DNA from: Mytilus galloprovincialis
Taxonomy: Eukaryota > Mollusca > Bivalvia > Mytilida > Mytilidae
NCBI RefSeq assembly: GCF_965363235.1
Contig: NC_134841.1
Span: 39,213,440-39,277,439 of the forward strand
Direction of reading: 5' to 3'
Length of the DNA: 64,000 nucleotides
The notes under the pieces are model-generated. The model did not search any database. It was not told where the DNA came from and saw only the letters and a list, made by a program, of their open reading frames with translations. Shown here piece after piece: positions 5,772 through 61,492 of the stretch; within the stretch, counting starts at the first letter, position 1, and each line of letters opens with the position of its first letter. Made by a program: the position numbers and the translations under genes.

Positions 5772-6603
5772 AAAATCCGATATCGCTAATATGTTGTGAC
5801 ATCGACACACGGTTTCAGACACCTAATTTGCGATGATAAAACTTAAGTTGTCTCAATATTTTAAAGACAACACTGATGTATAAAATATTGGTATTAAAGA
5901 GTCTTTTGATTGCTTGCTTGCTTGATAGATTATGTGGTGTTTTTTTACGTTTTATGCGATTTTCAGTTCTTTTACCGTGTTGGGACAGTCAGTTTATATT
6001 GGCAGAAGAAGCCGGGGTACTATGAGAGAACCACCGTCATTCGGGAGGGAAAAAAATGTTATCCTGGTCAACTCTGATAAGAATTCAGCATGCCTAGTTC
6101 AAACAATAACTTTCGTTCTGCTATACATGTAGCAACGAAAACATTCAAATTTGTATTATCTCTTGATTGACAGGGGAAAAAAACACAAAGGAAATATGAA
6201 GAGAAGAAAAAGCAGATACCAGTCTGGTATAAAGTTAAGTGTTGTTATATTCAAATGTTCTTACCAGAAAATCATTTTTTGAACTAGAGTTACCTACCGT
6301 TTATCATGTTCTCGAGAAATAAATATTTTTATGTAAAATATCTTTTAGATCGATCATACTTAAAAAAAGAAATTAAAGCAAATATAGGCAAAGGACCTAG
6401 TATACAGAGTTAAATGCTCCTTCTTGCCTTGAATGCAGATCCTTCTTCTAAAGATATTGGCCTTTATTTTATAACTTAATAACTTAGCAAAAATATAGTT
6501 TGCATGCAATCTTAAAAGAAGAATTTCGTTGAATGATAAAATGATCTGAAATATTGTGCAGTCAAATATTTTTAAAATGTACATTATACACATACTTGTC
6601 TCG

Positions 6604-6960
6604 TTATAGATACCAAACTTCCAAACTGTATACGCCAGACGCTTCTCGTCTAGTATTCAAATATTTTGACTATTTAATTATTATGTCTGTTTACTTTCAC
6701 GCATCATAGTAAATATAACGGAATTTGATGAGACTGTCATCAAAGTGAGAGGTTTAGCGCATTTAAAACTATGTTTAATCCACCATTTTCTACATTTGAA
6801 AATGCCTGTACCAAGTAAAAAATATGACAGTTCTTGTCCATTCGTTTTTGATGTGTTTATGGACTTTCCGATTAGATTTTCCTCTGAGTTCAGTAATTTT
6901 GTGATTTTACTTTTTTCTAGAATAGACTCATCAGTCAAATAAAGTACAAAGTTGAAGTGC
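6604..6960 (+). repeat. Degenerate hammerhead-repeat fragment followed by PLE-tail repeat, copy 2
   Basis: TATACGCCAGACGC near 6631 resembles the stem I/III side of the hammerhead units but the core is lost. From about 6680 the motif series of the PLE-tail family follows: ACGGAATTTGATGAGACTG, AAGTGAGAGGTTTAGC, TTTGAAAATGCCTGTACCAA. It is close to the copy at 14340-14640, including the shared end AAGGTAAGATTTACCTCGCA. Confidence 0.5.
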
Positions 6961-10011: not shown

Positions 10012-10713
10012 CTAATGAAATAAATCATATACAAATTTAAGCAAAAATTTTGAAAAAAACACTTTAAACGTACAGTGTTACTTAGAAATGTTAGAAATTG
10101 CAATACAATAAGTTTTAATTTTTAAATTGAATATGTTTTTTTTTTAATCCAAAAACGAGTACCAATGTATACGATTTAGAAAAAAATTATTTTGATAAAT
10201 ACAAAGTTTGAACCAATTAAGGAAATGTGCTGTATTCAAGAATATGAAAAGAAGATATATCATTAATGACAAGGTACTTGGTCTTCATACAAAACTTTAC
10301 CACAGAGAACAATTATCATTGATATCGATCTATCAATATGTTTGCTAGAAATTATGAAGATAGACAATGACAAACGACGGAAACAAGCAGTTGCTTTACT
10401 TTTGTTTTATATTTTATGGATTTGTTTTATATTTTACACATCACGTACACTTTAAAGTACAAGTGAAGGGGATTTTATTTTCTTAAAATCGAATTATAAA
10501 ATAATTTGTATCGGTTTAAAATACCGTTTACGAATCTTTGGTATATGATTCATATACAAACCATAAAGAAGATGAAGAACCACAACGTCAATTTCTTTTG
10601 AGTGTCAATTTATGTGTCAAACTATCCTATTCAACGTCGTGACTCTTAAATTCTGACGGAACTGGTTTCTGGTATCAATTCTGGTATCTAATGATCAGTT
10701 TAGTTATACTTAC

Positions 10714-11371: not shown

Positions 11372-11582
11372 TGTTCACAAAGGATACCTACACAGAGTCG
11401 ATCATTTATAGCTTAAACCCACATATACGTTTTAAGTAGAATCATTACAGCGTCTATTCATCTCTGGGCAGTTACATAAAATAAATATAGCATACTTATA
11501 TCTTCATTTAAGTAAAGACCTTATATGGGTTGTCGCTAATGATTTTCCATTAAAGCTCATCAACAATACAAGGTTTCTAATT

Positions 11583-11720
11583 TGTTACGCAAGACGAACT
11601 TTCGTCTACGTGAACTAAGTAGATACTAGCCTTAAAAATATTTTCACTAGACGCACATATCGTGTTCAAAAGACTCATCAGTGAACCTCGAATCAGAAGA
11701 ATTACAAAGCCAAATAAATA
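11583..11720 (+). repeat. Degenerate fragment of the hammerhead-bearing repeat
   Basis: ACTTTCGTCTACGTGAAC near 11597 and GACTCATCAGTGAACCTCGA near 11670 resemble the GTTTCGTCTACATAAGACTC and CATCAGTGACGCTC parts of the 359-bp units, but are scrambled and diverged. The ribozyme core is not intact. Confidence 0.35.
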
Positions 11721-22254: not shown

Positions 22255-22306
22255 GCGGCGTTTTAGCTGTTTCGATTCTTATGTATACGAAACTCGCGTC
22301 TTGTTT
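22255..22306 (+). repeat. Degenerate hammerhead-like fragment
   Basis: CTGTTTCGATTCTTATGTAT followed by ACGAAACTCGCGTCTTG aligns with the intact motif at 56992-57035 (CTGATGAGTCTTATGTAGAC, GAAACGCGCGTCTGG), but the CTGATGA box is lost. Probably an old copy of the same repeat. Confidence 0.4.
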
Positions 22307-22464
22307 ACAATAATCATTATGTTTGTATCTTCAATATTTATTTACTGTCTACTATATTATGCAAAGTACAATATCTTGTATCTTGTTTACAATAATCATT
22401 ATATTTGTATCTTCAATATTTATTTACTATCTACTATATTATGCAAAGTACAGTATATTGTATC
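22301..22464 (+). repeat. 82-bp tandem duplication
   Basis: Two successive copies start TTGTTTACAATAATCATTAT at 22301 and 22383 and differ at only a few bases. The overlapping open frames here are products of the duplication. Confidence 0.7.
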
Positions 22465-43747: not shown

Positions 43748-44277
43748 ATCTGACATGAATAAGTCGTATTGTCCAATCCTATTTTGCATTGAGTACTTCC
43801 TGTTATTTGAAACCATAGAGGTGCATCAAAACAACACGTGTTACACCATGGAATGATAAAAAATTACTTAATTTCTTAAAAAGGAAATCAATCACTGATA
43901 CCTATCTTTTTAATTAGAAACGATCATCGTTATAAATATTGTCATTAATTATCATTACTCATCCATCATTTGTGTTTCAAACACTAAAAATATGTTACTG
44001 TTCAGTATTCTAATCTGACATAAATAATTCGTATTGTCAAATCCTATTTTGCTTTGAGTACTTCCTTTTATTTGAAACCACAGAGGTGCATCAAAACAAC
44101 AAGTGTTACACCATGGAATGATAAAGAATTACTTAATTACTTAAAAAGGAAATCAATCACTGATACCTATCTTTTTAATTAGAAACGATCATCGTTATAA
44201 ATATTGTCATTCATTATCATTACTCATCCATCATTTGTGTTTCAAACACTAAAAATATGCTACTGTTCAGTATCCTA
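43748..44277 (+). repeat. 265-bp tandem duplication of the C1q gene 2 promoter and start codon
   Basis: Unit 1 is 43748-44012 and unit 2 is 44013-44277, with only a few mismatches (shared GTGCATCAAAACAAC, GGAAATCAATCACTGATACC, AGAAACGATCATCGTTATAA). Each unit has a TATAAATA (43931-43938 and 44196-44203) and an ATG about 54 bases later (43992 and 44257). In unit 1 the frame reads MLLFSILI and stops where unit 2 begins, so only unit 2 leads into the gene. Confidence 0.85.
44196..44203 (+). promoter_or_regulatory. TATA box of C1q gene 2
   Basis: TATAAATA, 54 bases before the ATG, inside the second promoter copy. An identical box lies at 43931-43938 in the first copy. Transcription would start near 44226. 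Confidence 0.55.
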
Positions 44278-45532
44278 ATGTGCATGGTTTTATATTCATC
44301 GTCTGCTCAAAAGTCTTGTCCAGGAATAAGTAAGTGTTTTGCTGAATATTATGATTGGTTTTGTTTTTGTTTTGAATTGATGTAATGTGTTTATGATTGT
44401 ATTCGATGCAAATATTATTTTATACGACTTTGTTCGAATAAACTTGATTTTTTTCCTGTAGGCATTTAGATGATATGCATACTAGTTATCAAATAAGTTT
44501 TGAAACATTTTCCAAAAACCTTATAATTTTACTACAGTGTGTCTTGTACTAAAATATTTTAGGCAATGATGTTTTTGAAGATTTGATGGATGTCATGATG
44601 AAACTTAAGTGTCAGTCAGGCCAATCAAGTATGTATTAAACAAAATTATTTCATATACATTTTGTAACGTGGTTATTAAGTGGGCGCTGCTTTATTCAAA
44701 GCTATACACTATTTTGAAGTATAAACGTATCAGCTTCGTGGAGAAAAAATGTTCGTGCAGTTCATAAATATTTGTAAATAATAATGAAAAAAAGAGCTTT
44801 TAATAATTTAAAATTAAAGAAAATGATTTTTTATGATTAGAAGCAAGGATGTTAAATTTGAAACACATTTGCTCAAAAGTCAAATTCAAATTCAAAGAAA
44901 AAGAAGAAGCAAAAATTTATTTAAAATTGATTATGCTTTCTTTTATTTATACATTTAACTTAAAATGATTTGAATGTATTGCAGATACATTAAGTTTGTT
45001 AACAATGACTCATATTTGAACATACAAGACGAGTTAACATTAATTATATACATAAGTAACACTTTGAAAGATTCATTATGTTCAATTATAAGATTGGGTT
45101 TGACTCAAATAAATACGTCTTGCATTTTCAGACAACGGGGAACTACAGTCAAAGAAACCGGCATTTCTGGCAACGTTATCTAAAAATGTCAACTTAGGAC
45201 AGAACCACATATTAAAGTTTGATTCTATAAAGACAAACATCGGGGATGGGTATGACGCAAGTTCTGGAGTGTTTACTGCTCCACGGAAAGGCACATACGA
45301 ATTTGCAGTGAATTTCATCACCGGATATAAAGATGAATGGCTCGAGTTAGACCTGATTAAGAACAACAACATGGTTGTGAGGGGACATGCTGCTTTTGAT
45401 AAACACACATCGGGGTCACTTCAAGCCATTCTTGAACTGAAGAAAGGCGACCGGATCTATATCAATCATCCACGAGGTTCCGGGTTGCTTCAAGGAGAAC
45501 ACTACACGATGTTTTCTGGCCATTACATATAA
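44257..45532 (+). CDS. Secreted C1q-domain protein, three exons, 179 codons
   Basis: Exons 44257-44329, 44563-44628 and 45132-45532, with GTAAGT and GTATGT donors and TATTTTAG and TTTTCAG acceptors; phases agree. Exon 1: signal peptide MLLFSILMCMVLYSSSA then QKSCPG. Exon 2: NDVFEDLMDVMMKLKCQSGQ. Exon 3: C1q head from SKKPAFLATLSKNVNL through GVFTAPRKGTYEFAVNF, WLELDLIKNNN and GSLQAILELKKGD to HYTMFSGHYI and TAA. It has the same exon plan and cysteine positions as the minus-strand gene at 16.8-20.6 kb, so the two are paralogues. No collagen stalk. Probably an extracellular trimeric recognition protein; ligand unknown. Upstream lies a duplicated promoter, downstream a related pseudogene. The canonical AATAAA just after the stop (about 45547-45552) supports the 3' end. 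Confidence 0.9.
45132..45532 (+). CDS. Exon 3 of C1q gene 2: the whole C1q domain
   Basis: 132 residues after the split codon, ending MFSGHYI. Clean frame. The pseudogene exon at 51331-51702 aligns along its full length. Confidence 0.9.
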
Positions 45533-45554: not shown

Positions 45555-46095
45555 GCGTACGAAATGTAATTGGATTTTTATTATTTTTTAATACATTTGT
45601 GATATCAATTTAACCACTTCATCTGTCCGTCCACCCTTTTCAGCGTCCTTTTATGTTTTAACATAGTTAAAGTTCATAAACTAGTCACAACAACATCTAA
45701 GGCACCGAATAGTCAATGCGTCCTTGTTTTTTCCCTTCAGTTTAGTTGAAGGGCTTTAAGCCAACCAAAGCATAGCCTGGTATCCATCTGTGATCATAAG
45801 TCAATGGTTGAACGTTCACTGATTTATCTATGAGGTTTTTGAACCTTGTCACCTTTTATGTAATGTTTTAACAAAAGATACATAGTTTGTAATTATGAAT
45901 ACTAAGTTTAACATTACGCCTTTTTGATGACCTTATGCCTGTCTATAGGGTACACAGAATAATAATATACAACTCACACAATTATTGGCATTTTTGAATC
46001 CTGTATTTGTGTGTTTTGGAGATGGAGGAAGCGAATACTTTAATCCATTGAATAGCAATCAAACCACTGTCAACGTGATATATAAACTCATCATA
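45555..46095. other. Downstream flank of C1q gene 2, part of a segmental duplication
   Basis: No gene. GTTCATAAACTAGTCACAAC (45672) and ACACAGAATAATAATATACA (45951) have counterparts after the pseudogene (GTTCATAAACTCATCACATA near 51852, ACACAGAATAATAATTATGT near 54100). The two C1q blocks therefore descend from one duplicated segment, with later insertions in the second. Confidence 0.5.
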
Positions 46096-46120
46096 GATAC
46101 CAGAACTAAATTTAGTATAT

Positions 46121-46164
46121 ACGCTAGACGTGCATTTCGTCTAAAAAAGACTCATCAGTGACGC
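46121..46164 (-). ncRNA. Type I hammerhead ribozyme motif, core intact
   Basis: On the minus strand: stem I strand GCGTCA, CTGATGA, stem II GTCT-loop-AGAC, GAAA, a short stem III, then GTC and TAGCGT. All core bases agree with the hammerhead consensus; stem I has one weak pair. Confidence 0.7.
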
Positions 46165-47832
46165 ATGAATCAAAAAAGTTAAAAAGGTCAAATAAATTAC
46201 AAAGTTGAAGACCATTCAGAACCAAAATTCCAAAAAGTTTTGCAAATACAGCTATGGTAATCTATGCCTGAGGTAGAAAAGCCTAGTATTTCAAAAAATT
46301 CAAAAATTTGTAAACAGTAAATTTATAAATATAACCATATCAATGACAATTCATGTCAGCACAAAAAGTGCTGACTACTGGGCTTGTAATACTCTCAGGG
46401 CCATAAATCTCCACCAGCAGTGGCATCGACCCAGTGGTTGTAAATAAACTCATCATAGATAGTTATCAAAGGTACCAGGATTATAATTTAGTACGCCATA
46501 TGCGCGTTTCGTCTACATAAGACTCATCAGTGACGCTCATATCAAAATATTTATAAAGCCAAACAAGAACAAAGTTAAAGAGCATTGAGGATCCACAGAT
46601 ACCAGGACTAAATTTAGTATATACGCCAGACGCGCGTTTCGTCTAAAAAAGACTCATTAGTGACGCTCGAATCCAAAAAAGTTTAAAAGGCCAAATAAAT
46701 TACGAAGTTGAAGAGCATTGAGAACCAAAATTCAAAAAAGTTTTGCAAATACAGCTAAGGTAATCTATGCCTGAGGTAGAAAAGCCTAATATTTTAAAAA
46801 ATTCAAAAATTTGTAAACAGTAAATTTATAAATATAACCATATCAATGACAATTCATGTCAGCACAAAAAGTGCTGACTACTGGGTTTGTTATACCCTCA
46901 GGGAAATAAATATCCACCAGCAGTGGCATCGATCCAGTGTTTGTAAATAAACTCATCATAGATAGTTATCAAAGGTACCAAGATTTTAATTAAGTACGCC
47001 ATACGCGCGTTTCGTCTACATAAGACTCACCAGTGACGCTCATATCAAAATATTTATAAAGCCAAACAAGAACAAAGTTAAAGAGCATTGAGGTTTCAAA
47101 ATTCCTAAAAGTTGTGCCAAATACGGCTAAGGTAATCTATGCCTGGGATAAGAAAATCCTTAGGTTTTCGAAAATTCAAAGTTTTGTAAACAGGAGATTT
47201 ATAAAAATGACCACATTATTGATATTCATGTCAACACCGAAGTGTTGACTACTGGGCTGGTGATACCCTCGGGGACGAAACGTCCACCAGCAGTGGCATC
47301 GACCCAGTGGTGTAAATAGTTATCAAGGTACCAGGATTATAATTTAGTACGCCATACGCGAGTTTCGTCTACATAAGACTCACCAGTGACGCTCATATCA
47401 AAATATTTATAAAGCCAAACAAGAACAAAGTTGAAGAGCATTGATGATCCAAAATTCCTAAAAGTTGTGTCAAATACGGCAAAGGTAATCTATGCCTGGG
47501 ATAAGAAAATCCTTAGGTTTTCGAAAATTCAAAGTTTTGTAAACAGGAAATTTATAAAAATGACCACATTATTGATATTGATGTCAAGACCGAAGTGTTG
47601 ACTACTGGGCTGGTGATACCCTCGGGGACGAAACGTCCAAAAGCAATGGCATCGACCCAGTGGTGTAAATAGTTATCAAAGGTACAAGGATTCTAATTTA
47701 GTACGCCATACGCGCGTGTCGTCTACATAAGACTCATCAGTGACGCTCATATCAAAATATTTATAAAGCCAAACAAAAACAAAGTTCAAGAGCATTGAGG
47801 ATCCATAGATACCAGGACTAAATTTAGTATAT

Positions 47833-47876
47833 ACGCCAGACGCGCGTTTCGTCTAAAAAAGACTCATCAGTGACGC
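47833..47876 (-). ncRNA. Type I hammerhead ribozyme motif, core intact
   Basis: On the minus strand: GCGTCA, CTGATGA, GTCT-loop-AGAC, GAAA, CGCGCGTC (cleavage after GTC), TGGCGT. Stem I pairs over six bases, counting wobbles. Stem III is only about three pairs, so it may act best as a dimer in tandem transcripts, as known for minimal stem-III hammerheads. Confidence 0.75.
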
Positions 47877-48344
47877 TTGAATCCAAAAAAGGTAAAAAGG
47901 TCAAATAAATTACGAAGTTGAAGAGCATTGAGAACCAAAATTCAAAAACGTTTTGCAAATCCAGCTAAGGTAATCTATGCCTGAGGTAGAAAAGCCTAGT
48001 ATTTTAAAAAATTCAAAAATTTGTAAACAGTAAATTAATAAATATAACCATATCAATGACAATTCATGTCAGCACAAAAAGTGCTGACTACTGGGCTTGT
48101 GATACCCTCAGGGAAATAAATCTCTACCAGCAGTGGCATCGACCCAGTGGTTGTAAATAAACGCATCATAGATACCAGGACAAAATCTAGTATATCTTTA
48201 TATTAATCATTTGCATTGCACTCAAATGTACATATAAAAAAAGCGACAGGAGATACCAACATCATGATAATCGATAAATAAAAGAGGGAAAAAATACAGT
48301 CAACTGTCTTTAAAACTTTTTTTAAGATGACTTTAATTTTATAC

Positions 48345-48560
48345 CTAGTTACCATGTTTCAAAATTTTTCTTGTAAGTAGCAGCCCGTTATTAGGGAAAT
48401 GAAAAGAAACGCATATTCTGAAATAGATAGCAACAACTTTGATATGTAAAATCAATGCGCAGGCGCTGCTGGAATGTCGCCTAACGGTAAAGTAGTAACC
48501 ATGATCTTCACCTAAGATCATATCTGGATGGCAGGGTATTGTCCTATCAAGGTATAACAA
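48345..48560 (-). pseudogene. PLE reverse transcriptase remnant
   Basis: Minus-strand text GDIPAAPAH, then YISKLLLSISEYAF and LQEKF matches the PLE stretch SNIPTSPAYGIYIFKLIRYS. It occupies the same relative place behind the C1q gene as 54836-55051 does behind the pseudogene, so it predates that duplication. Broken. Confidence 0.5.
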
Positions 48561-48599
48561 TCTTGTCTTTTGTCATATCTTTGAACTTTATTTCAAATC

Positions 48600-50428
48600 A
48601 AATAAGTACCAATATATTAACGTACATTGACCGTTAACTACAGATACATGTATGTATCTACCTTGGTCAGGTAACGTAGATGAAGTTAACATATTATTAT
48701 TACCTAAAATAATATCTTGGCTACATTTTTTGTTTGGTTTTCAAGCCATTAAATTGGTCAAGGTTGATGACAGCTGGTAACGTATTGAGGTTCTATTCAG
48801 AGAAGCGGTGTATTTGTTTTCTCTCTTATCAGCAACTATCATAGAAGTAGTAAGTTAAGCAAGATATCAAACAAGATTGAAACTCACAATTTTCCGGAAA
48901 ATACCTCTTCTAAGTCTAAGTGAGGAATGGCGGTTGTTTTTCATTTGTTCTATTGATTGATAACGTTTGCTTTTGTCAGTTTAGAATGGACTTCCCGTTA
49001 CGGATTTTTCTTGGAGATAGGTATTTTGTGTGATATATTTTTGTTAGTTGTGATTAGATGTAATATGATCCTTTATACGAATAATGAAAAAAAATCAAAT
49101 GCATTTTAAAAGCACACACACGTTTGGATAATGTTATTAGATCAATTCGTAATTCAACATTGGGGAATTTTGAAATAAATTTACAGATCATTTAAGGTAG
49201 ATCATAGGCATATGTTTGCAGAGATAGAATTTTCTAATACTTTGGCAAAATGAAGATTTTAATATTATCTTTTCAAAAATATGACAAAAAGGATGGGTCA
49301 CCGTGCTATTTTTAAAGCTATGAATCGTCGAAAATTGCCTAAATTTGCTTAGAATGATAACGAAAAAAAAAACACATGTTTGTGCATAAAAGAAAATCTA
49401 TGAGATACAATTTTGAAATAAATTATGAGAAGAAAATTTTATAATTTGTTTTAAGAAAATAAAAAGAAAAAATGGTTTCACCGAACTTGTTTTCTTGCTA
49501 CAAGTAAAAACAAATTTCCCTATCAATCCAGTATAAATTTAGTATTAAAAGAAAAATATCCCGCTGTGCGGTTACCGAAATTATTACTCGACTTTTCGAA
49601 TTGCTTGGTGAATGAATCTGTTGTGTCAAATTAAAACATTTTATCTAAAGGTGAACACTATTATGTGTTTAGAAATTACAAGGTTACATGCTAAAAAGAT
49701 AGTTGTGTGAGTTCATGGAAGCCCAGCATCAGTACAACTTTGTGCAACGTAATAAACTCTAATATTAGATATAGTATTATATTTCACGAAATTAATCAGA
49801 CCAAAATGTTGTATCGCATCAAGGTTATTATACTGAAATTATTAAGTAAAAATGAAAATTTTCTATTCTTCATTTTGAACATAAGTCACATTTTTCTCAA
49901 ACATTTCCCGTCAAACTCCTTCCACCAATTTACAGTATATAATAAGAATACATAATGTTAACAAAAGCTGAACAATAAGTTTTGATAAAGATTAAAAGCA
50001 GGAATTTTGACAATTATCTGCAAGGTTTTGTCGCAAATCGAATTAAACGACAATTAAGGAATGTGCGCGTCTGGCAATATACAATTTTAATCCTGATGAT
50101 GAGTTTATGTATACGGTCCACATAATTTAACTTACTTATTCTACAATAAAACAAACACATTGCATAGAGGGTTATACTAGTACCTATTTTCATCATCTTT
50201 TTAAAATTAGTACATGTGGTTGTCACTATTGTTTATGGTATAAATACTTGGTATGTGAAAAAGGAGCAAACTTCGTTGTCTTTTATTCTATTATGCTGTG
50301 TTGTATTAGTACAACGAATTTTAATCATTTATGTCTATTGTGGATAAATCAATTTTGTAAATAATTACTATTTTTTTATATTTTAAAACACATGAACATA
50401 AGAAATATACAAAAGTGATCACTAAAAA
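48600..50428. other. Intergenic, no gene seen
   Basis: AT-rich. A TATA-like TATAAATACTTGG near 50240 resembles a core promoter, but no exon with a signal peptide was found after it before the repeat array. Nothing else recognised. Confidence 0.4.
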
Positions 50429-51275
50429 GTTATTAAAGGTATCAGGATTATAATGTAATAAGCTAGACGCGCATTTCGTCTACATAAGACTCATCCGTGA
50501 CGCTGCGATCAAAAAAGTTATAAAGACAAACAAGTATAAAATGACATTGAGGATCCAAAATTCCAAAAAGTTGTGCCAAATACGGCTAAGGTAATCTATT
50601 CCTGGGATATAAAACTCCTTAGTTTTTCGAAAATTCAAAATTTTGTCAACAGGAAATTTATAAAAATGATCTTATAATGATTTTCATGTCAACACCGAAG
50701 TGTTGACTACTTGGCTGGTGATACCATAGGGAACGAAATGTCCACCAGCAGTGGTATCGACCCAGTGGTGTAAAAAATTATCAAAGGTACCAGGGTTATA
50801 ATTTAATACGCTAGACGCGCATTTCGTCTACATTAGACTCACCAGTTACGCTCCGATCAAAATAGTTATAAAGCCAAACAAGTATAAAGTTGAAGAGCAT
50901 TGAGGACCCAAAATTCCAAATACGGCTAAGGTAATTTATTCCTGGAATACTAATAGTTATCAAAAGTACCAGGATTATAAATTAGTACGTCAGATATGCG
51001 TTTTGTCTACTTAAGACTCATCAGTGACGCTCATATCAAAATATTTATAAAGCCAAACAAGTACAAAGTTGAAGAGCATTGAGGATCCAAAATTCCAAAA
51101 AGTTGTGCCAAATACGGCTAATTTAATCTATTCCTGGGACAAGAAAATCCTTAGTTTTTCGAAAAATTCAAAGTTTTGTAAACAGGAAATTTATAAAAAT
51201 GACCATATAATTGATATTCATGTCAACACCGAAGTACTGACTACTGGGCTTGTGATACATCCTAATACACTCTAA
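50429..51275 (-). repeat. Tandem array of hammerhead-bearing units, array B
   Basis: Three type-B units start near 50435, 50778 and 50948; the middle one is shortened. Hammerhead motifs on the minus strand all have core damage: CGGATGA near 50490, CTGGTGA near 50850, and AAAA instead of GAAA near 51005. More diverged than array C. It lies directly upstream of the C1q pseudogene exon and replaces any exons 1 and 2. Confidence 0.7.
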
Positions 51276-51330
51276 ACATGTTTAATGTTGTTATTGAATA
51301 TGACACATATTGTTTAATCTTACATTTTAG

Positions 51331-51702
51331 ATAAACCGGCATTTTTTTGCAACATTGTCTACAAAAATGGTCAGCGTAAGAACGAGTAACGTAGTGAAGT
51401 TTAATAATGTAACAACAAACATCGGAGGTGGTTATGACGTAAGCTCCGGAGTGTTTACTGTTCGAACAAAAGGCACGTACGTACGAATTTCATTACTAGT
51501 AATAGGCACGAGTGGCTCGAACTAGATCTGATTAAAAACAGTTGTTGTAAGGGGACATGCTGCTCATGATCAATTTACATCGGGATCTATTCAAGCCATT
51601 CTTGAACTGAATGTATGCGATCGAATCTGGGTCAATCATCCACGAAGTTCAGGGCTGCTTTATGGTGATAATTTCACGATGTTTTCTGGCCACTATATAT
51701 AA
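51331..51702 (+). pseudogene. C1q-domain exon, pseudogene
   Basis: After TACATTTTAG, the text aligns with exon 3 of C1q gene 2: KPAFF, TNIGGGYDVSSGVFTV, HEWLELDLIK, VVVRGHAAHDQFTSGS, IQAILELNVCDRIWVNHPRS, then FTMFSGHYI and TAA. There are frameshifts near the run of Ts at 51345-51351 and around 51480-51540, where several codons are also missing. No exon 1 or 2 was found upstream. A dead paralogue in the duplicated segment. Confidence 0.8.
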
Positions 51703-51909
51703 GTAAGACGCACCAAATAAAAAAATTATCAAAAAAATTTAATTGTCATTCTTCTTTTAAATCCACGATTTTAATTTACCACTAACAGACCACCTGTCCT
51801 TGTGTCTGCCCTTCTGTGCAGCCTTCCATCTTAACCCTTTTCAATAATAAATGTTCATAAACTCATCACATATACATCCTGGTAACCGACTACAACTATG
51901 GTATTAATG

Positions 51910-52570
51910 AATGGGTGTTTTTATAATGGCCCTTTTATATGTCCAAGGTCTGTAATAATGGTCGAGGAAGTCTGTAATGGCCCGAGGCAACGCCGAGGGC
52001 CATGACAGACATCCTAGGCCATTATTACTAACCGAGTATATATAACAGGGCCATTATAAAAACACCCATTTCTTAATACATTTATTAACCAACTGAACAA
52101 AAGTATATGTCTTGCTACCGACTTGATGTACTCTCTTACTCTTTTAATGACAGTTTAGTTTGAAAAAAATAGTTTGTACTTCACCATGATAAAGCTTTAA
52201 ATATACCAAATATCCAAGATATCAAGTTGAAAGAAGTTATGTGTTGAAAAACAGGATGAACAGTGATCCCTTTATATGGTTCTTTATAACTCTTTAATGG
52301 TTTACTCTTTACAACTTAATTTTATTAACTTTATTAAAAACCTTAACTGGGCTTAATACAGACAAACTGGGCATTAATACAGGGCCATTACAGAAAACAG
52401 GGCCATTACAGAAAAAACAGGGCCATTACAGAAAAACAGGGCCATTACAGAAAAACCGGGCCATTACAGAAAAAAACAGGGCCATTACAGAAAAACAGGG
52501 TCAATACAGAAAATGTGTAATTTTTAATAAATAGTCATTTTTGGCAATAATGTACTTAGTTGGTTAATAA
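51910..52570. repeat. Nested inverted-repeat element
   Basis: AATGGGTGTTTTTATAATGG (51910) pairs with CCATTATAAAAACACCCATT (to 52070), 23 perfect bases. Inside this, TCTGTAATGGCCC faces GGGCCATGACAGA. A wider pair, TTATTAACCAACT (52080-52092) and AGTTGGTTAATAA (about 52557-52570), encloses the minisatellite at 52378-52515. It inserted into the flank of the C1q pseudogene, since the corresponding flank of gene 2 lacks it. Confidence 0.6.
52378..52515 (+). repeat. About 19-bp minisatellite ACAGGGCCATTACAGAAAA
   Basis: Seven or eight units with small length differences in the A run. The unit shares GGGCCATTA with the ends of the surrounding inverted-repeat element, so it probably grew from it. 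Confidence 0.8.
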
Positions 52571-53171
52571 TACAATGTATTTAATGCTTCGTTAGGTAGA
52601 CATACTGTAATGCCGGCTTTCCCCATTTGTATAGTAAACCTATGTCTGTATAGTTTCTTGAAAGTATTTAGGATAAACGATAGATGTTAGTGAGATGTCT
52701 AATGCTGCAAGTAATGTAAAACTTGTAATTTGTTAAATTGGCTGTTGTTTCCATGAGACGACAGATTTGTGTATGTTAGTTTGTTAAGAAGTTTTATTTC
52801 ACGTACTGATCCCGTATTTTCGCGGTAGTTACCTTATTATACTATAAACTCAAATAAAACTATTCTAATGATCTACTTATGAATTTAAAGTCAAAACGCA
52901 TTTTTATTGATGAAGATCAATCCATGTTTACAAACAATATCAACATTACGGGAATTTCCCTTGTGTGATTCATGGTTTCCGATTGGTAAACACTATGTAA
53001 AAAGCTCTGCCATTGGTCAGTCGAAAGTATAAATACAAAAACAACAACAGAAACGACGGAATGTTGGGTTGACAATGAATGGGAAGTGACAAACTTAAAT
53101 ATAAGCTGGAATAAGTCTGAAAAATACAGACAAGCGTTGAAAGTTAATTTTGTTGTAATTTAAGATTGTCA

Positions 53172-53255
53172 GTGCCGGTGACGGTGCTATGTACGTGTAC
53201 CGGTGACGGTGCTAAATACGGGTGACGGTGACAGTGTCGGTGACAGTGCTATTGA
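53172..53255 (+). repeat. GTGACGGTGCT-type short tandem repeat
   Basis: Irregular repeats of CGGTGACGGTGCTA, GGGTGACGGTGAC and CGGTGACAGTGCT. GC-rich compared with the surroundings. Confidence 0.6.
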
Positions 53256-53259
53256 AGGT

Positions 53260-54435
53260 GCACATTAAGAGTTCTGTCGGCGGTTTTGACATTTTAATAT
53301 GTCATTTAATGTGTTATATTAAGTTATTGTCTTCTTAGTTCTTTAATGTAGAAGGGTGTTTTGATCCTTTAATTGAGAATATAGAAAGATACAAAATAAG
53401 TGACAACCTTGTTACTTGACTGTTGAACTATATACATGAACTAGTTGTGTGTGTCTATGTAAGACCAACCTTAACCGAAAACCTGACCAGACCTGTGACG
53501 GATCCTGCAAGACCCATTCTCTCCGGAGTGGATTATTTTTTATATTAATAAAATATGAAACTTTATTTTATTCAGATATTTTATTTCATAACTGAGAATT
53601 ATATATATATATACAAGTATACGTTTTCCCTTTCTGTAACGTGTTTTGGTCCGACGGCAAACAGTGGACGTTGAACCTTACACTTTATAGATCCTTTTAC
53701 TCTCTTTTTCTTTGTGACCCTGGGTTCTCTGGTGGCCGACTCTAGCACCAGGGAGGCGGCGTTACAATACTTCGACGCTATCTTTTTGTTAAGTTTCGTT
53801 GTTATGCTTAAAGACAACCGCAGCATATCCTGGAATATATCTATGGTTGTTAAATCTAAACATATCGTCTGAAGGCAATGCTTTAGTGATTTATTTTCCA
53901 GATTATTGAATTATGTCACCTATATTTCATGACTTTAATAGCATTATGAGTTGGTTGACCATTATGGTATCCGTGTTGTTCAGTCTTTAGTTTTCTATGT
54001 TGTGTTTTTTGTACTGTTGTTTCTCAAGTTTTTTTTATACTTTTCTCTTTATATAGAAATTTATATCATACAATGTTTGCAACATGACGACCATTATGAC
54101 ACAGAATAATAATTATGTACAACTAACACAATCAGTGGTAGTTTATCATGTTCATGTGTCTTTGTGTTTTGTAGAAGAGGAGGGACATACTTTATTCTCT
54201 TGACTAGAAACTAACCCGCTTTTATTGATATATATTATTCGTTTGCAATGTACTAACATTTACCCATAAAAGCGACAGAAGATACCTACCGAATAATCCA
54301 TCAACAAAAACATTAATAACAGACATTAACATGAGAAAAGAAAAGAAAAAATAACGACAATACAAACAACATATGAAACAAAGCAAGTCAAATCGCACAT
54401 AAAAAACTCCAGTGTAATATTAGGTTCTCATGATA
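53260..54435. other. Intergenic; partial dispersed repeat at 53970-54020
   Basis: No gene recognised. TAGTTTTCTATGTTGTGT near 53988 is a fragment of the repeat at 9421-9578. Sequence around 54095-54290 is the counterpart of 45940-46040 and 48190-48270 in the C1q segmental duplication (shared AAGCGACAG, GATACC). Confidence 0.4.
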
Positions 54436-54439
54436 ACTC

Positions 54440-54620
54440 AGGTTTAGCTAGCTATAAAACCAGGTTCAATATAAGAAAATGCATGTACCAAGTCAGGAAT
54501 ATGACAGTTGTTATCCATTCCTTTGATATGTTTCAGATTTTGATGTTGCCATTCGATAAGGGACTTTCCATTTTGAATTTTCCTCGGAGTTCAGTATTTT
54601 TGTGATTTTACTTTTTTCTT
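54440..54620 (+). repeat. PLE-tail repeat, copy 6
   Basis: AGCTATAAAACCAGGTTCAA, GTACCAAGTCAGGAATATGA, TCCTCGGAGTTCAGTATTTT in family order, shorter than the other copies. Confidence 0.55.
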
Positions 54621-54835
54621 GTATCAACAGTTGCTTGTCCAAGTAAGTTATACCTGTCATATTGATTATAGCAAGTAAATTCATGTGATAAGACAGTCAC
54701 AATTGACGAAAAAGAATACTGGATTTTAGCTAAAGCGATTTAAAGATATTATGGTCGTTTATGACAAATAAATTTCAGAACAGTAAACCATATCGTGCTA
54801 GCGTCCGTAAAACTTCCAAAACGATTACTGTAATA

Positions 54836-55051
54836 TTAATCTAAGTTACCCCTGTTTCCATAGATTCTTTTTAAGTTGCAACACTTTATCAAGGAAATCA
54901 TGAAAAGCTCTGAAATATATCGCAATAACTCAGATATACAGACGCAACTAGAATGTTGCCTAGCAAAGATATCACCATGGCCTTTTCCAAAGGCCAATTC
55001 ATAAAGTAGGACAGCATAATATTGAGATTCTTGGTCACTCCTATTGGACAC
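54836..55051 (-). pseudogene. PLE reverse transcriptase remnant
   Basis: Minus-strand pieces CVCISELLRYISE and HDFLDKVLQLKKNLWKQG match the thumb region of mussel PLEs (compare GIYIFKLIRYSRACSSYSDF at 13.4 kb). It is the likely partner of 48345-48560 through segmental duplication. Confidence 0.45.
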
Positions 55052-55228
55052 AATTTAGATATGTAAGTAAAAATATGATTATATGCAAAATATATTCTAG
55101 CCGAAACAATCTAAGAGCTAATCTTATTCAAATGCAAGGGAATAGAAAATAAGCAAAAGAAAACAAAAAAGTTAAAACTATAATTTGTATTTGACTGTGT
55201 ACACATTGTAATTTGTACACAAAGTCAG

Positions 55229-55440
55229 TAGTTACGATTGTGAGAATGGTCGAGTAGTTACGATTGTGTTGTGAGAATGTCCGAGTAAGTGCAATTGTGT
55301 TGTGAGAATTGCCGAGTAGGTACGATTGTGTTGTGAGAATGGTCGAGTAGGTACGATTGTGTTGTGAGAATGGCCGAGTAGGTACGATGGTGTTATAAGA
55401 ATAGCCGAGTAGTTATGATTGTGTTGTGAGAATGACCATT
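55229..55440 (+). repeat. 31-bp minisatellite, about seven units
   Basis: Consensus unit TAGGTACGATTGTGTTGTG then AGAATGGYCGAG. Units differ at a few bases and the first is shortened. The minus-strand open frame over it (HNTIVPTRPFSQ repeats) is a by-product; there is no evidence for a protein. Confidence 0.85.
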
Positions 55441-55547
55441 CTTTGCAGTACAATACATATCGTTTGACTTCTTTCTTGTGCCTGTATTGATAGATTGTTT
55501 CCAGTTGTCTACGTTAACATGTCAAATAAACATTCTCGTTTGAATTG

Positions 55548-55712
55548 TTTTACATTGTCTTATCGAGGCCTTTTATAGCTGACTATGCGGTATGGACTTT
55601 GCTCATTGTTGAAGGCCACACGGTGACCTATGGTTGTTAATGTCTGTGTCATTTTGGTCTTTTGTGGATAGTTATCTCATTGGCAATCATACCACATCTT
55701 CTTTTTTATATA
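55548..55712 (+). repeat. Dispersed repeat ending CAATCATACCACATCTTC
   Basis: TTTTATAGCTGACTATGCGG, TGTTGAAGGCCACACGGTGA and TGGATAGTTATCTCATTGGC are phrases I remember as very common in mussel DNA. Diverged copies: 16178-16372 (same strand) and 63024-63070 (opposite strand, CCAATGAGACAACTC). Confidence 0.55.
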
Positions 55713-56880
55713 CTAGCTATATGTAATGTCGGATACAGCGCACCTTTGTTTGTATAGATTACAATTTCTAACATAAAAATTTCAAAAATACAGATGTCTT
55801 CAAGTAATTGTTTCTAAAACCAAATAAAGCTATGTTTGTACACCTGCAACACAATAGAATATTGCACGCTGACATTTATTTTGTGCTCTCAAGGAAATAT
55901 GTTGCGTGACAAAAATATTTAACAATCATTATCTAAAAAACCGAAACCTTAATTTTTCCGCGTAAATATTCAACTACTAACAAGAAATAACTTTTGCCGA
56001 ATTCTTTAATACTTCATATGTTAGGCAATAAGTAGTGTGATCTTAAAATGATTTTAAAGTATATACACGTAAGATAACTAATTTGATGTAAATATTGTAT
56101 ATACATACATATGTTCATAGATTTTCAGACCTTTTAAAAAAATATGATTATTCCATTGAAAAGGCTATTTTAGACAGTATATCCATTTTTATATGACTAT
56201 GTTTTTTTTCTCAAGCAACCCTATATTTTCGAGGACGTCTATGTTTGATCAAGTGAAAACATTCCTATGGTTAAAAACAATAAGTGTTAGAGTATGTACA
56301 ATGTACGTTTATACAACAATGAAGAGGTAAACATAAATACATTGTAATTAAAAAGCAAAGCACGAAACCAATGAATAAACCCAGTATGATAATACTGTTC
56401 TACCACTTGAATAAATTGTTGTTTATAGTCTTATAAAATCTATGCCAAAGTGGGGCGTTTGTTGGGCTGTACGGCTGTCCAAGTTATCAGCCACGTCCGG
56501 TTAGAATGGCGCGAGTAGAGAGAGCTTCACGCTCTCTTCATGTGAAAGTAAAATTACAAAAAAACAACGAAATCAAAGGGTAATTAACAACTAAAAAAAT
56601 TAAAAGCTCAAACACATCAAACGAGCCTTGCAGCAACTCATGGAGTAGATCTTAGGTGAACTGTTGGAAGGCGAAATTTATATGCCTTACTTATATTGAC
56701 TCATTTTACATTGACTAAATTTCCTTTTGGACGTTAGGCAACCAACAATTATTTTCTAAAAGTGTCCGTTCCTACATTTTCAAAAGTTTTCAAAGTTTTA
56801 CCCTTGATTGATTTGGCTATTGTCTAGTCTATTTACATATTTTATACAGCTCTTCAACTGTCTGGTTCTTAAGATTTTCT
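55713..56880. other. Intergenic, no gene seen
   Basis: AT-rich, with no exon or repeat unit recognised except a possible PLE-tail piece in reverse near 56550-56620 (GTGAAAGTAAAATTACAAAA). Confidence 0.4.
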
Positions 56881-57043
56881 TATTCCAGGCATAGATTACC
56901 TTAGCCGTGTTTGGCACAACTTTTTGGAATTTTGGATCCTCAATGCTCTTCAACTTTGTACTTGTTTGGCTTTATAAATATTTTGATATGAGCGTCACTG
57001 ATGAGTCTTATGTAGACGAAACGCGCGTCTGGCGTACAAAACT
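56881..57043 (+). repeat. Solo fragment of the hammerhead-bearing repeat
   Basis: CAGGCATAGATTACCTTAGC, TTTTTGGAATTTTGGATCCT, CAATGCTCTTCAACTTTGTA and AATATTTTGATATGAGCGTC are the reverse of type-B units. It is a single partial copy outside any array and in the opposite orientation to the three arrays. Confidence 0.75.
56992..57035 (+). ncRNA. Type I hammerhead ribozyme motif, best-preserved copy
   Basis: Plus strand: GCGTCA, CTGATGA, GTCTTATGTAGAC (stem II of four pairs with a 5-base loop), GAAA, CGCGCGTC with cleavage expected after C57029, then TGGCGT pairing back to GCGTCA as stem I. Every invariant core base is present. Stem III is self-complementary and very short. Known family feature: such minimal type I hammerheads work mainly in dimer or tandem form. 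No activity is shown here. Confidence 0.8.
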
Positions 57044-58144
57044 ATCTTATACATCTATGGCTCTCAAATTTTCGTCATTTGGTGTTCAGAATGAATATAA
57101 AACAGAATTGTGATGAATACAACTGAAGCAAAATATACTGGTAAGGATGATCAGTAATATGATTAAAAAACTTAATAAGATAAATAATTCAGGGAAAATG
57201 GAGAACTCATTTAATTGTAAACATACTGGTAAGGTTTGTTTTTATGAGAAAAAAATATAGGCAAACAATTTGATGAAGACGTGTTAAGCAAATTTTAATG
57301 GCAAGGATTTTCAGTTCAATGACTGAAGTGTTTATAAAATAAGAATAAAGAATGATAAGGAACACTTCTGAAAAATGACGTATTGGTAAGGATTTTAAAT
57401 AAAATGATCTCGAATCAAAAATAAAGTGTATCCATTGTCTGTATGAAATGATTTGTGGGATATACATCAATGATACAGCAACACAACAATAAACCATAAA
57501 AAAAAACCTCTTAGTTGTGTGTTTTCTATTCGTTATTTGTTTATGAATTTAGAACCTGCATAATGGTTCAAGCCATTTGAGAAAACATTGAAACATACAA
57601 ATGAGAAGAACGTGTCTCATTGCCGATGGGAAAACTATCACTAGTCTAAAATTCAAATTGTATAATAGACTAGTCGAACTGAAGGTCACCCACCCAACAG
57701 CTTTCAATACAGAGCTTACGCATACCGTATTAAAAACTCTAAGAGATCCTGTCATGACAAAATTAAAACAAATTCAAACTAGAAATTTGTCATTTTAACA
57801 AGACTTAGTTTTTAATCATCCGTAATTTATAAGTATAATTGATAAATGATCCTTTTCATTTTGATCATTACTTGGATCATTATTTATTATAGAAAAATAC
57901 AATTTGGATCCTTATTTATTGTCGAAAAATACAATTTACAGAATTTGAAAATCTTGTGTTTTTCATTCATTAAAAATATTTTATCCAATTATTTGCCCAT
58001 TGCTTTTATTTTATATTCCGGAAGACATATCTTGCTTCTTTCTAACTATACCTAACATTTTACTAGGAGACGCTGCATTTAAGAAAGAAAAAATACCTGA
58101 ATATCCTGTATTTATGCATTTTTCACTGAAATCAAAAATTTTAG
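57044..58144. other. Intergenic, no gene seen
   Basis: Short open frames only. A 31-bp duplication, GGATCATTATTTATTATAGA and the following bases, repeats at about 57871-57933. Nothing else recognised. Confidence 0.4.
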
Positions 58145-58350
58145 CATATCTATCACATAAGCAACACGACGGGTGCCACATGTGGAGCAGGATCTGCTTA
58201 CCCTTCCGGAGCACCTGAGATCACCCCTTGTTTTTGTTGGGGTTCATGTTGTTTATTCTTTGGTTTTCTATGTTGTGTCATGTGTACTATTGTTTGTCTG
58301 TTTGTCTTTTTCATTTTCAGCCATGGCGTTGTCAGTTTATTTTCGATTTA
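58145..58350 (+). repeat. Longer copy of the 'GCCATGGCGTTGTCAGTT' repeat
   Basis: CGGGTGCCACATGTGGAGCA, CTTCCGGAGCACCTGAGATC, GGGGTTCATGTTGTTTATTC and CAGCCATGGCGTTGTCAGTT. The 9421-9578 copy continues with GAGTTTGACTGTCCC, but here the LINE coding text starts instead, so the LINE inserted into this repeat. Confidence 0.6.
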
Positions 58351-59038
58351 TGTTATATATAATTCAGAGGAATATTGGAAAATACTTAAAGAATTGAAAA
58401 AGACCACAAAACGTGAAAATAACTCTGAAGAAATATTTAAAAACTTAGAAGAGCTAGAAAAACATTTTCAAAACCAAGGAAACTGCTCTTCTGTCAACAA
58501 AGAATTTCAAAAAATTATAGAAACAGAATTTATAAACATTGAAGATAAAATTTTATATATAAACACCACTGACAAACCTTTTACACTATCAGAGGTTAAA
58601 ATTGTTATAGATAAACTTAAAACAGGTAAATCTTCAGGACCTGATCAAATTTTAAATGAAATTATTAAATTCAGTAGCCCTGATACACTTAAATCTTTAA
58701 CAAAACTTTTCAATGCTATACTAAAATCTTGATGCTATCCTAAATTATGGGAAAAATCATATATTATTCCAATTCATAAATCAGGAGACAAATATGATTT
58801 AAATAACTATAGAGGAATTGCTTTAATGAGCTGTTTGTCAAAAGTATTTAGTGCATTGTTAAATAATAGACTAAACAAACTTATGGAATCCAAATATAAC
58901 CCCTCACAGTTTGAATTTCGAGAGAATCATAGAACTTCTGATAGCTTATTTATTCTTAAATCTATTATAAATAAATACCTTCATAAAAATAAAAAGGAAA
59001 TATATATTTGCTTCATAGACTTTAAAAAAAACCTTTGA
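58350..59038 (+). pseudogene. LINE reverse transcriptase, N-terminal part
   Basis: EEYWKILKELKKTTKRENNS, then KTGKSSGPDQI and, after an in-frame TGA near 58731, WEKSYIIPIHKSGDKYDLNN, YRGIALMSCLSKVF and FRENHRTSDSLFILK to FIDFKK. These are the fingers and first catalytic Asp motifs. No endonuclease domain, so 5'-truncated. Confidence 0.75.
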
Positions 59039-59992
59039 CTCTCTTTGGCGGCTAGGACTAATGTATAAATTGTGTAAACAAGGAGTTGGTAAACACATCT
59101 TTAACATCATTAAAGCACAATTCAACCATACTCTTGGTTCTTTCAAACATAAGAATTCAGAGTCTAGACATTTTATTACAGATAAAAGTGTAAGACAAGG
59201 AGATTCTTTAAGCTCCATTTTATTTAACATTTTTATTAACGACTTAAGTCAGATATTTGAAAAGCAAAACTGTACCCCTGTAAAACTTATAAATTTAGAC
59301 ATAGGAAGTCTCCTATTTGCAGATGATTTAATCATATTATCAGAGAGCGAAAACGGTCTGCAAAATAGCTTAAATAATCTCTCGGAGTATTGTGATAAAT
59401 GGCAATTAACAGTTAATACAAAAAATCTAAAACCATGATACTACAAAATAATCCAAGTAAAATAAATAAACCCTTTTTGAAATTTAAAGGAAAATACCTT
59501 GAAAAAGTATATGAATACAAATACATTGGATGTGTTATAACATCTAATGGCAATCTAACTAGCAAAAAAGGCAAGAAAAGTTTATTTGCTATTAACTCTT
59601 ACTCATCAGGCTTTGGACATCTTCCTGTGAGAGTGTCTTGCAACCTTTTTGAAACTTTGGTCAAACCTATTCTAACATATAATAGTGAAATATGTTATAT
59701 GGACACTTATATTCAATTTTATAGAGCTAGACTCCGAGCTAACAAAAATAGCTCATCACCAGATGCTATTCATTTTATTGATAAAACTATTTTAGAAAAA
59801 AACCAGCTACATTTTATTAAACAAGTACTGGGGACAAAAAGAAGCTCAACAAATCTAGCTGTTAGAAATGAACTAGGACTTCTGCCATTAGAAACTTTCA
59901 TAAAAACCCAAACTATGATGCACCTATCTAGATTAAATAATGAAAATCTAAACCACTTCTTAATGAAGCCTTTAAATTCACTAAAAGTTTAA
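59035..59992 (+). pseudogene. LINE reverse transcriptase, palm to C-terminal part
   Basis: Two overlapping frames. The first has GVGKHIFNIIKAQFN, SVRQGDSLSSILFNIFI and LLFADDLIIL (catalytic FADD). The second has FKGKYLEKVYEYKYIGCVIT, LVKPILTYNSEICYM and RNELGLLPLETFIKTQ. This is the usual thumb/C-terminal order of CR1/Jockey-like elements. Confidence 0.75.
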
Positions 59993-60366
59993 ATACTAAG
60001 TAAACATACTCTTGGTATACTTTTGCAAAATATGTGTCACAAGATATAAATATTGACATCAAACTTATTGAGGAACTAAAACTTTAAAACAGACTAAAAT
60101 GTTAAACCCCGATTAAAAAAGGGTTATAATAACTATTATCAAACTCTTATTGATGACAAATTAAATAACTTAAACGAAAATAATAAAATATGTCTATATA
60201 AATTTCTTAAATCTAATATAAATTACCAAATGAAATACTACCTATCGCACCCAAGTAAAGAAACAAGAAAAATGTTAACCAAATTTAGAATTAGCGATCA
60301 TTGTCTCTTAATAGAAACTGGACGATATACCAAAATACCACGAAATGAAAAAAAATGTAAAATATG

Positions 60367-60372
60367 TTATAT
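60367..60372. repeat. Target-site duplication of array C, left copy
   Basis: TTATAT, also at 61270-61275. The LINE zinc-motif text is continuous across the two copies once the array is ignored. Confidence 0.65.
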
Positions 60373-60404
60373 AGTTATCAAAGGTACCAGGATTATAATT
60401 TAGT

Positions 60405-60448
60405 ACGCCAGACGCGCGTTTCATCTACATAAGACTCATCAGTGACGC
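60405..60448 (-). ncRNA. Hammerhead ribozyme motif, array C unit 1
   Basis: Minus strand: GCGTCA, CTGATGA, GTCTTATGTAGAT, GAAA, CGCGCGTC, TGGCGT. The core is complete; the pair next to GAAA is G-T instead of G-C, which may slow cleavage. Confidence 0.7.
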
Positions 60449-60763
60449 TCATATAAACATATTTGTAAAGCCAAATAAGTACAAAGTTGAAGAGCATTGA
60501 GGATCCAAAATTCCAAAAAGTTGTGCCAAAAACGGATAAGGTAATCTACTCCTGGGATAAGAAAATCCTTAGTTTTTCGAAAATTTCAAAGTTTTGTAAA
60601 CAGGATATTTATAGAAAAAAATGACCACATTATTGGTATTCATGTCAACAACAAAGTGTTGACTACTGGGCTGGTGATACCCTCGGGGACGAAACGTCCA
60701 CCAGCAGTGGCATCGACCCAGTGGTGTAAATAGTTATCAAAGGTACCAGGATTATAATTTAGT

Positions 60764-60807
60764 ACGCCAGACGCGCGTTTCATCTACATAAGACTCATCA
60801 GTGACGC
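60764..60807 (-). ncRNA. Hammerhead ribozyme motif, array C unit 2
   Basis: Same sequence as in unit 1, exactly 359 bases further on. Cleavage at both sites in a minus-strand transcript would release a 359-nt RNA. Confidence 0.7.
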
Positions 60808-61122
60808 TCATATAAACATATTTGTAAAGCCAAATAAGTACAAAGTTGAAGAGCATTGAGGATCCAAAATTCCAAAAAGTTGTGCCAAAAACGGATAAGG
60901 TAATCTACTCCTGGGATAAGAAAATCCTTAGTTTTTCGAAAATTTCAAAGTTTTGTAAACAGGATATTTATAGAAAAAAATGACCACATTATTGGTATTC
61001 ATGTCAACAACAAAGTGTTGACTACTGGGCTGGTGATACCCTCGGGGACGAAACGTCCACCAGCAGTGGCATCGACCCAGTGGTGTAAATAGTTATCAAA
61101 GGTACCAGGATTATAATTTAGT

Positions 61123-61166
61123 ACGCCAGACGCGCGTTTCATCTACATAAGACTCATCAGTGACGC
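61123..61166 (-). ncRNA. Hammerhead ribozyme motif, array C half unit
   Basis: Same sequence again, 359 bases after unit 2; the unit stops about 100 bases later at the LINE border. Confidence 0.7.
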
Positions 61167-61265
61167 TCATATAAACATATTTGTAAAGCCAAATAAGTAC
61201 AAAGTTGAAGAGCATTGAGGATCCAAAATTCCAAAAAGTTGTGCCAAAAACGGATAAGGTAATCT

Positions 61266-61492
61266 ACTCTTATATCTTAGACGATGAATTCCATTCTTTC
61301 ATTAACTGTAAAATAAATAAAAATAAAAGAGAAATCTTTCTGAAATATTATATTCAAAAATATGTAAATTTTAATACACTTAATTTTACTGAAAAACTGG
61401 TGATTATACTAAATCCATCAACACCAAATGATGTAACAGCAGTTGTTTCTTTTATTAAAGAGTCATTAGAACTGAGGAAAGGAAAACAATAA
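61266..61492 (+). pseudogene. LINE C-terminal end after the array
   Basis: SYILDDEFHSFINCKINKNK, then KYVNFNTLNFTEKLVIIL and VVSFIKESLELRKGKQ with TAA. EFHSFINC is the second half of the zinc motif whose first half lies before the array. It is organised like the 8.6-kb LINE tail. Confidence 0.7.

Follow-up and report, generated by a model that had tools for sequence, protein, structure and literature searches.

The window analysed here is a stretch of 64,000 nucleotides from the genome of the mussel Mytilus galloprovincialis (assembly GCF_965363235.1, contig NC_134841.1, positions 39,213,440 to 39,277,439, forward strand), and our subject is a family of short tandem elements with type I hammerhead ribozymes, known as retrozymes, which form three arrays and several truncated copies in it. 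The copies carry the hammerhead motif and have a common 3' end and variable 5' ends; the clearest cases are flanked by target duplications, and the youngest insertion consists of identical units. The common end point is followed directly, on its 3' side, by a conserved folded domain. We propose that these insertions probably arose when an RNA circle was copied from a fixed internal start point by a reverse transcriptase of the Penelope type.

Identity of the elements

The preliminary description of this DNA read the arrays as mussel retrozymes, and our analysis supports that reading: a type I hammerhead, tandem units of about 350-360 bp, a GC content of 33-39 percent, no long reading frame and, in the two clearest cases, duplications of more than 4 bp are present. 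These are among the features of a metazoan non-long terminal repeat (non-LTR) retrozyme (type I hammerhead, unit of 150-450 bp, GC below 45 percent, no protein, duplications above 4 bp). Such elements in mussels are already in print (Cervera and de la Pena 2020, PMC7229834). Mytilus galloprovincialis was described there as having two hammerhead families with repeats of about 350-390 bp and abundant circular RNA on northern blots, a cloned repeat being cleaved with a kobs of about 0.1 per min. The hammerheads published for the mussel number about 5000. Because the fit to this published family is close, the element family is not new; the sequences support its assignment to the non-autonomous non-LTR retrozymes of the published Mytilus type, with self-cleavage and circular RNA taken from that publication. 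What the present sequences appear to add is the anatomy of insertion, namely the fixed 3' end, the duplications, the nested insertion and the folded domain. A text search of open-access papers for sequence strings of the element returned no paper, and pattern scans of prokaryotic and viral contigs, collections of little bearing here, returned no relatives.

Two unit types can be told apart, the A-type, which measures 362-363 bp from one end point to the next and has GTCTTTTTTAGAC as stem-loop II, and the B-type of 348-359 bp, mostly with GTCTTATGTAGAC. Measured from cleavage site to cleavage site, seven of the ten monomers in the arrays have 348-373 bp and the other three 130, 130 and 179 bp; two monomers of 372-373 bp are mixed, with a B tail on an A body. 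The single unit of 350-360 bp given in the preliminary description is to be corrected accordingly. Monomer GC is 0.33-0.39, and the longest stop-to-stop frame in the ten doubled monomers has 63 amino acids.

A common 3' end point

Read in RNA sense, ...CCTTTGATAACTAT closes the B insertions and ...TATCTATGATGAGTTTAT the A-type array, at homologous positions 40 (B) and 45 (A) nt past the cleavage site. Two rotated unit profile models, each with the end point inside, were run over the window with nhmmer (24 rows each), leaving out rows that run to or near a model end (including 22064-22176) and the two A-type units broken by the nested insertion described below. Twelve loci stop inside the models, none of them at the cleavage site, and seven share a stopping point, with deviations of up to 4 nt before and 7 nt after it in the better-scoring model; these lie at 46.08, 50.42, 50.95, 60.37, 6.6, 11.55 and 22.3 kb, the one at 50.95 kb being a junction inside array 2. 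The nested B-in-A junction is an eighth locus at this point, and two fragments detected by BLAST, at 50065-50108 (E 7.7e-6) and 10681-10706 (E 0.004), agree with it. When ends were simulated as uniform, at least seven of 12 fell within some 14-nt window in 21 of 2,000,000 trials, eight of 13 (the nested junction added) in 0 of 2,000,000, and four of the five large insertions alone within 9 nt in 520 of 2,000,000, the widths in these simulations having been picked after the data were seen. A closed estimate of 5e-11 for eight of eight ends was discarded because it ignores the misses. All these counts concern copies from this window, a small sample.

The 5' ends vary among copies. Target-primed reverse transcription is recognised by a 3' end that stays constant, 5' ends that vary, and target duplications. 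The end point is situated beyond the self-cleavage site. If a linear monomer released by self-cleavage were copied from the end point, the product would be only 40-45 nt long and lack the hammerhead; if it were copied from its own end, the product would stop at GTC. Neither route fits the copies with hammerhead and tail, which call for a circle or an uncut multimer as template.

Insertions and target duplications

The youngest insertion is 2.50 units long, and Tandem Repeats Finder gives 100 percent matches at period 359 for 60371-61269. When its flanks are joined with one TTATAT, an open frame runs through KCKICYILDDEFHSF, presumably the downstream part of a decayed long interspersed nuclear element (LINE) whose RVT_1 matches lie in two frames at 58733-59435 (E 2e-11 and 2.9e-18); the frames downstream of these have no Pfam match of their own. 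The identity of the units favours one circle copied 2.5 times. Array 1 differs in this respect: two of its adjacent B units show 95.5 percent identity, and Tandem Repeats Finder gives period 353 with 94 percent matches for 46962-47805.

Within an A-type unit of array 1 stands a B-type element of 839 bp with an 8-bp duplication, read directly from the junctions, of CATAGATA on the plus strand (TATCTATG in RNA sense) at 46957-46964 and 47804-47811. A second B-in-A copy has the same junctions and is 707 bp, that is two B units, shorter; the two duplication copies around it differ by one base (CATAGATA, CACAGATA). We read the pair as probably one B-in-A insertion that was later duplicated and that lost or gained two units. 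Taken together, the two clearest cases have target duplications of 6 bp and 8 bp, and two weaker ones of 4-5 bp. Near 50952, inside array 2, a 5'-truncated unit adjoins a common 3' end, an arrangement expected from a template jump. Separately, 6914-7144 and 14531-14644 (minus strand) are two copies of another repeat which hold a piece of the retrozyme unit and run from CTGATGAG on into one shared unrelated sequence; the piece may have been captured by that other element or been its donor.

Hammerhead cores

The arrays and the solo copy lie where the preliminary description placed them. The pattern CTGATGA-N(6-20)-GAAA occurs 12 times in the window, compared with an expectation of 1.02 from shuffles, among which the highest count was 4; seven of the 12 fall inside the arrays or the solo copy. 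A search with the 44-nt core, allowing up to 13 substitutions, gave 15 matches, 14 in these regions and one at 11644, and none in 20 mononucleotide-shuffled windows. An Rfam scan of the window at the gathering threshold gave no match; at E up to 10, a scan of 45.9-61.5 kb (15.6 kb) gave 11, ten of them hammerheads. The best Hammerhead_1 match, at 56992 (33.0 bits, E 5.7e-5), falls below the gathering score of 34, as do all the other cores. Five of the six cores named earlier match Hammerhead_1 (E 5.7e-5 to 0.0023), but the one at 46121 matches only Hammerhead_3, with E 0.17.

Integrity was judged on the stems and on the invariant positions (CTGATGA, GAA and the cut-site H), wobble pairs being allowed. 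By this measure five of the 14 cores are intact, at 47833 and 56992 and, with one G-U pair each in stem II, at 60405, 60764 and 61123, so that the three cores of the youngest insertion are among them; two (46121 and 46493) hold the invariant positions but carry a stem mismatch, and seven break an invariant position. The earlier designation as fully intact therefore stands for 47833 and 56992 but not for 46121. Compensatory changes in stems I and II, which the same description had looked to as a check, were not seen by inspection among the few and similar copies of the window (14 cores stem-checked, 12 distinct ones aligned). Three 44-nt cores folded alone did not take the three-stem form, which is a poor test for short isolated cores and gives no support either.

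A folded domain next to the end point

The sequence CCACTGGGTCGATGCCACTGCTGG... directly 3' of the end point lies in the best conserved 30-column stretch between A and B units (0.88); the corresponding value for a stretch spanning most of the hammerhead is 0.86. Four of the seven aligned copies of the domain were folded, with z of -4.06, -4.23, -3.34 and -2.72, and when the structure of one row is laid over all seven, 93.1 percent of the cells pair. Three of the 31 pairs are altered on both sides, in seven cells against a shuffled mean of 3.2, a number reached in 2 of 500 shuffles. When circles were predicted for four B-type units, the stretch of 10 nt leading up to the end point was more open than 90-96 percent of windows. 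The support for the domain comes from essentially two lineages. No Rfam family matched in the domain at E up to 10, where a second ribozyme was looked for. An origin from a core domain of short interspersed nuclear elements (SINEs; MetaSINE) is a possible candidate, for which a literature search gave no usable paper. The stability of whole circles as a sign of viroid-like structure was weak and was set aside.

Table 1. Positions of retrozyme copies and associated features in the window
Feature	Position	Strand	Remark
Hammerhead core	56992..57035	+	intact, 33.0 bits
Hammerhead core	47833..47876	-	intact, 32.5 bits
Hammerhead core	60405..60448	-	G-U in stem II, 28.2 bits; same at 60764-60807 and 61123-61166
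Hammerhead core	46121..46164	-	C-A mismatch in stem I; U-G in stem III
Folded domain directly 3' of common end point, with flanks	60633..60729	-	predicted fold
Other aligned copies of the domain	48060-48156, 46850-46946, 46347-46446, 47221-47316, 47573-47669, 50680-50773
Array 1, A-type units (362-363 bp) with nested B-type insertion	46079..48195	-	RNA sense is the minus strand
B-type element, 839 bp, about 2.4 units of 353 bp, within A-type unit	46965..47803	-	8-bp duplication
Second B-in-A copy, 132 bp, same junctions	46462..46593	-	707 bp (two B units) shorter
Array 2, B-type	50423..51258	-	no clear target duplication
Youngest insertion, 897 bp, 2.50 units of 359 bp	60373..61269	-	units without any difference
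Target duplication TTATAT, left copy	60367..60372	.	flank of youngest insertion
Target duplication TTATAT, right copy	61270..61275	.	flank of youngest insertion
Decayed LINE, presumed downstream frame split by youngest insertion	58733..61492	+	joined flanks in frame
Solo B-type copy, intact core, 5'-truncated	56872..57045	+	possible duplication TCTTA
Short A-type copy, 5'-truncated inside hammerhead, common 3' end	50065..50108	+	possible duplication ATGT; BLAST only
Old weak 5'-truncated A-type tail copy	6599..6653	-	E 0.007
Old 5'-truncated tail copy	11553..11608	-	adjoins older piece 11620-11797
Old tail copy	22274..22345	+	related older piece 22064-22176 continues beyond end point
Weak A-type tail fragment	10681..10706	+	E 0.004, BLAST only

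Other features of the window

The window has a GC content of 30.7 percent. On the minus strand, LINE-like frames at 35391-42127 give Exo_endo_phos, RVT_1 and zf-RVT matches, with a CCHC frame beyond; the frames overlap, and the element looks slightly broken. Two reading frames with C1q domains lie at 16782-17195 (minus) and 45113-45532 (plus); like the GC content, they are in keeping with mussel DNA. A 265-bp unit is repeated twice at 43748-44279 (95 percent matches), and a 19-bp unit, ACAGGGCCATTACAGAAAA, occurs in seven copies at 52379-52513.

Discussion

Our consideration of how these copies came about leads to the following scenario. Transcripts of tandem units would cut themselves at the hammerhead, and a host ligase, as in the published model, would close the monomer to a circle. 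The reverse transcriptase of another element might then copy the circle into a nicked, AT-rich target, beginning at a fixed internal point after ...GATAACTAT (B, 40 nt past cleavage) or ...GATGAGTTTAT (A, 45 nt). This start point would lie just 5' of the conserved folded domain, the likely binding site of the enzyme. Copying would pass through the hammerhead and could halt anywhere, leaving 5'-truncated solo copies, and more than one round would leave tandem units. The likeliest enzyme is perhaps a Penelope-like one; enzymes of that type begin internally and leave a tail of this kind. A more general proposal, to which we lend somewhat less than even credence, is that mussel retrozyme circles carry a dedicated start for reverse transcription, an open loop about 40 nt past the hammerhead followed by a folded domain bound by a Penelope-type enzyme, enabling repeated copying of a circle that lacks a 3' end directly into the nicked target.

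The choice of enzyme leans on two systems. A purified Penelope-like protein of Anolis cut AT-rich DNA and then began reverse transcription at an internal position beyond its hammerhead, for which it required RNA 3' of the start; the authors tie this internal start to the 30-40-bp tail of genomic lizard copies (PMC11167929). In Penelope elements of Adineta vaga the tail measures 31 bp, some copies have duplications of 9-10 bp while others have none, and partial tandems with 5' truncation occur (PMC3846280).

Several observations weigh against our proposal. Mutating the lizard hammerhead left insertion unaffected, and the main substrate in that system was uncut RNA (PMC11167929), so that a Penelope-type enzyme need not use circles. 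Because of this, and because the common 3' end is taken as an internal start and not as the end of an RNA, our confidence is moderate. Five of the 12 stopping loci do not fit the common end: those at 6.93 and 14.55 kb are pieces inside another repeat and share a junction, that at 11.62 kb directly abuts the next copy, that at 42.84 kb scores weakly (E 0.3), and the solo copy can be read as ending in AACTAT, and so as fitting, only on the assumption of a 24-nt deletion. The models disagree at 22.3 kb, B stopping at the point and the lower-scoring A well before it; the 6.6 kb locus is a weak match, and both fragments detected by BLAST are absent from the nhmmer output at E up to 1. Array 2 has no clear target duplication, an automatic finder with the boundaries first supplied gave only 3 and 5 bp at the nested insertion, and boundary searches commonly yield 5-6 bp by chance, for which reason a duplication by itself was rejected as proof of insertion. 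The identical units of the youngest copy could stem from recent unequal exchange or from assembly. Covariation was not seen in hammerhead stems I and II of the window cores and is thin in the domain, where 156 of 500 shuffles have at least as many two-sided pairs and the structure tested is the fold of one of the rows. Whole circles of six units fold weakly better than shuffles (z -0.31 to -2.77), and their antisense folds about equally well. Finally, no Penelope-like element was confirmed in the window. Three overlapping frames at 12116-13756 (plus strand) are candidates for a Penelope-like reverse transcriptase on the strength of YWIPKLHK and RYIDDVLS, which resemble motifs of that family; the three pieces gave no Pfam (E up to 0.01) or NCBIfam (E up to 1) match, and one of them, compared with PDB sequences, nothing better than E 0.11.

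Let us consider, then, that circles take no part in insertion and that a linear RNA, multimer or monomer, ending at the common point is copied by a LINE enzyme in the manner of a SINE. Such a template predicts the common 3' end and 5' truncation equally well, and at 35.4-39.2 kb the window holds a LINE whose overlapping frames match endonuclease, RVT_1 and zf-RVT. Against it, only TTT follows the end point in the unit, with no long T run or poly(A), ARAGORN found no tRNA gene in 45.5-61.5 kb, and published mussel RNA is mostly circular, the linear form making up less than 5 percent in one assay set and up to 10-25 percent in another (PMC7229834). We regard a linear template as unlikely, while taking it as the most serious competitor to the copied circle.

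Growth at the DNA level, in which unequal exchange or the re-insertion of extrachromosomal circles expands the arrays and the hammerhead is a mere passenger, would account for the two B-in-A copies that differ by two B units, which resemble the products of exchange or duplication; target duplications, a single 3' end with variable 5' ends and solo truncated copies would be unexpected, and we consider such a satellite very improbable. If anything slightly less credible is the notion that the hammerhead is decaying in all copies and that present mobility is independent of its core. That no copy attains the Rfam gathering score and that in nine of the 14 cores an invariant position is broken or a stem position is unpaired speak for it, but five cores, including the three of the youngest insertion, retain the checked invariant positions and all stem pairs, and the cloned mussel repeat was cleaved at about 0.1 per min (PMC7229834).

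If copying from a fixed start on a circle is correct, it would explain how an RNA circle, which has no end, becomes tandem DNA copies, and the question is testable in any mussel assembly. A 2020 Cells review stated that metazoan retrozymes have no known conserved motif from which the enzyme could be deduced (PMC7761336); a fixed start beside a conserved folded domain, if true, would be such a motif. Neither a fixed start point nor a start signal for animal retrozymes was found in the open-access literature, which leaves most subscription papers outside. The window thus offers, from a small sample, a lead on the mobilising enzyme.

Among known systems, the Mytilus retrozymes described before share with the elements here the type I hammerhead, two similar ribozyme groups, tandems of about 350-390 bp, low GC and the non-LTR type; compared by description, the common 3' end, the folded-domain signal and the nested insertion go unreported in the available sections of that paper (PMC7229834). 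Plant LTR retrozymes are likewise non-autonomous and hammerhead-bearing and have circular RNA, but they differ in their type III hammerhead, long terminal repeats, primer binding site and 4-bp duplications (PMC7229834, PMC7761336). The anatomy of the mussel copies appears to match the scheme of Penelope-like elements (Poseidon of Anolis, PMC11167929; Adineta vaga, PMC3846280), which have a fixed internal start of reverse transcription (in the lizard near a hammerhead), a 30-40-bp tail, partial tandems, 5' truncation and AT-rich targets. Unlike the retrozymes, those elements are autonomous, with reverse transcriptase and GIY-YIG domains (PMC11167929, PMC3846280), and the lizard element used uncut RNA in vitro and, from the positions given, starts 85-92 nt past its cut (PMC11167929), compared with 40 and 45 nt here.

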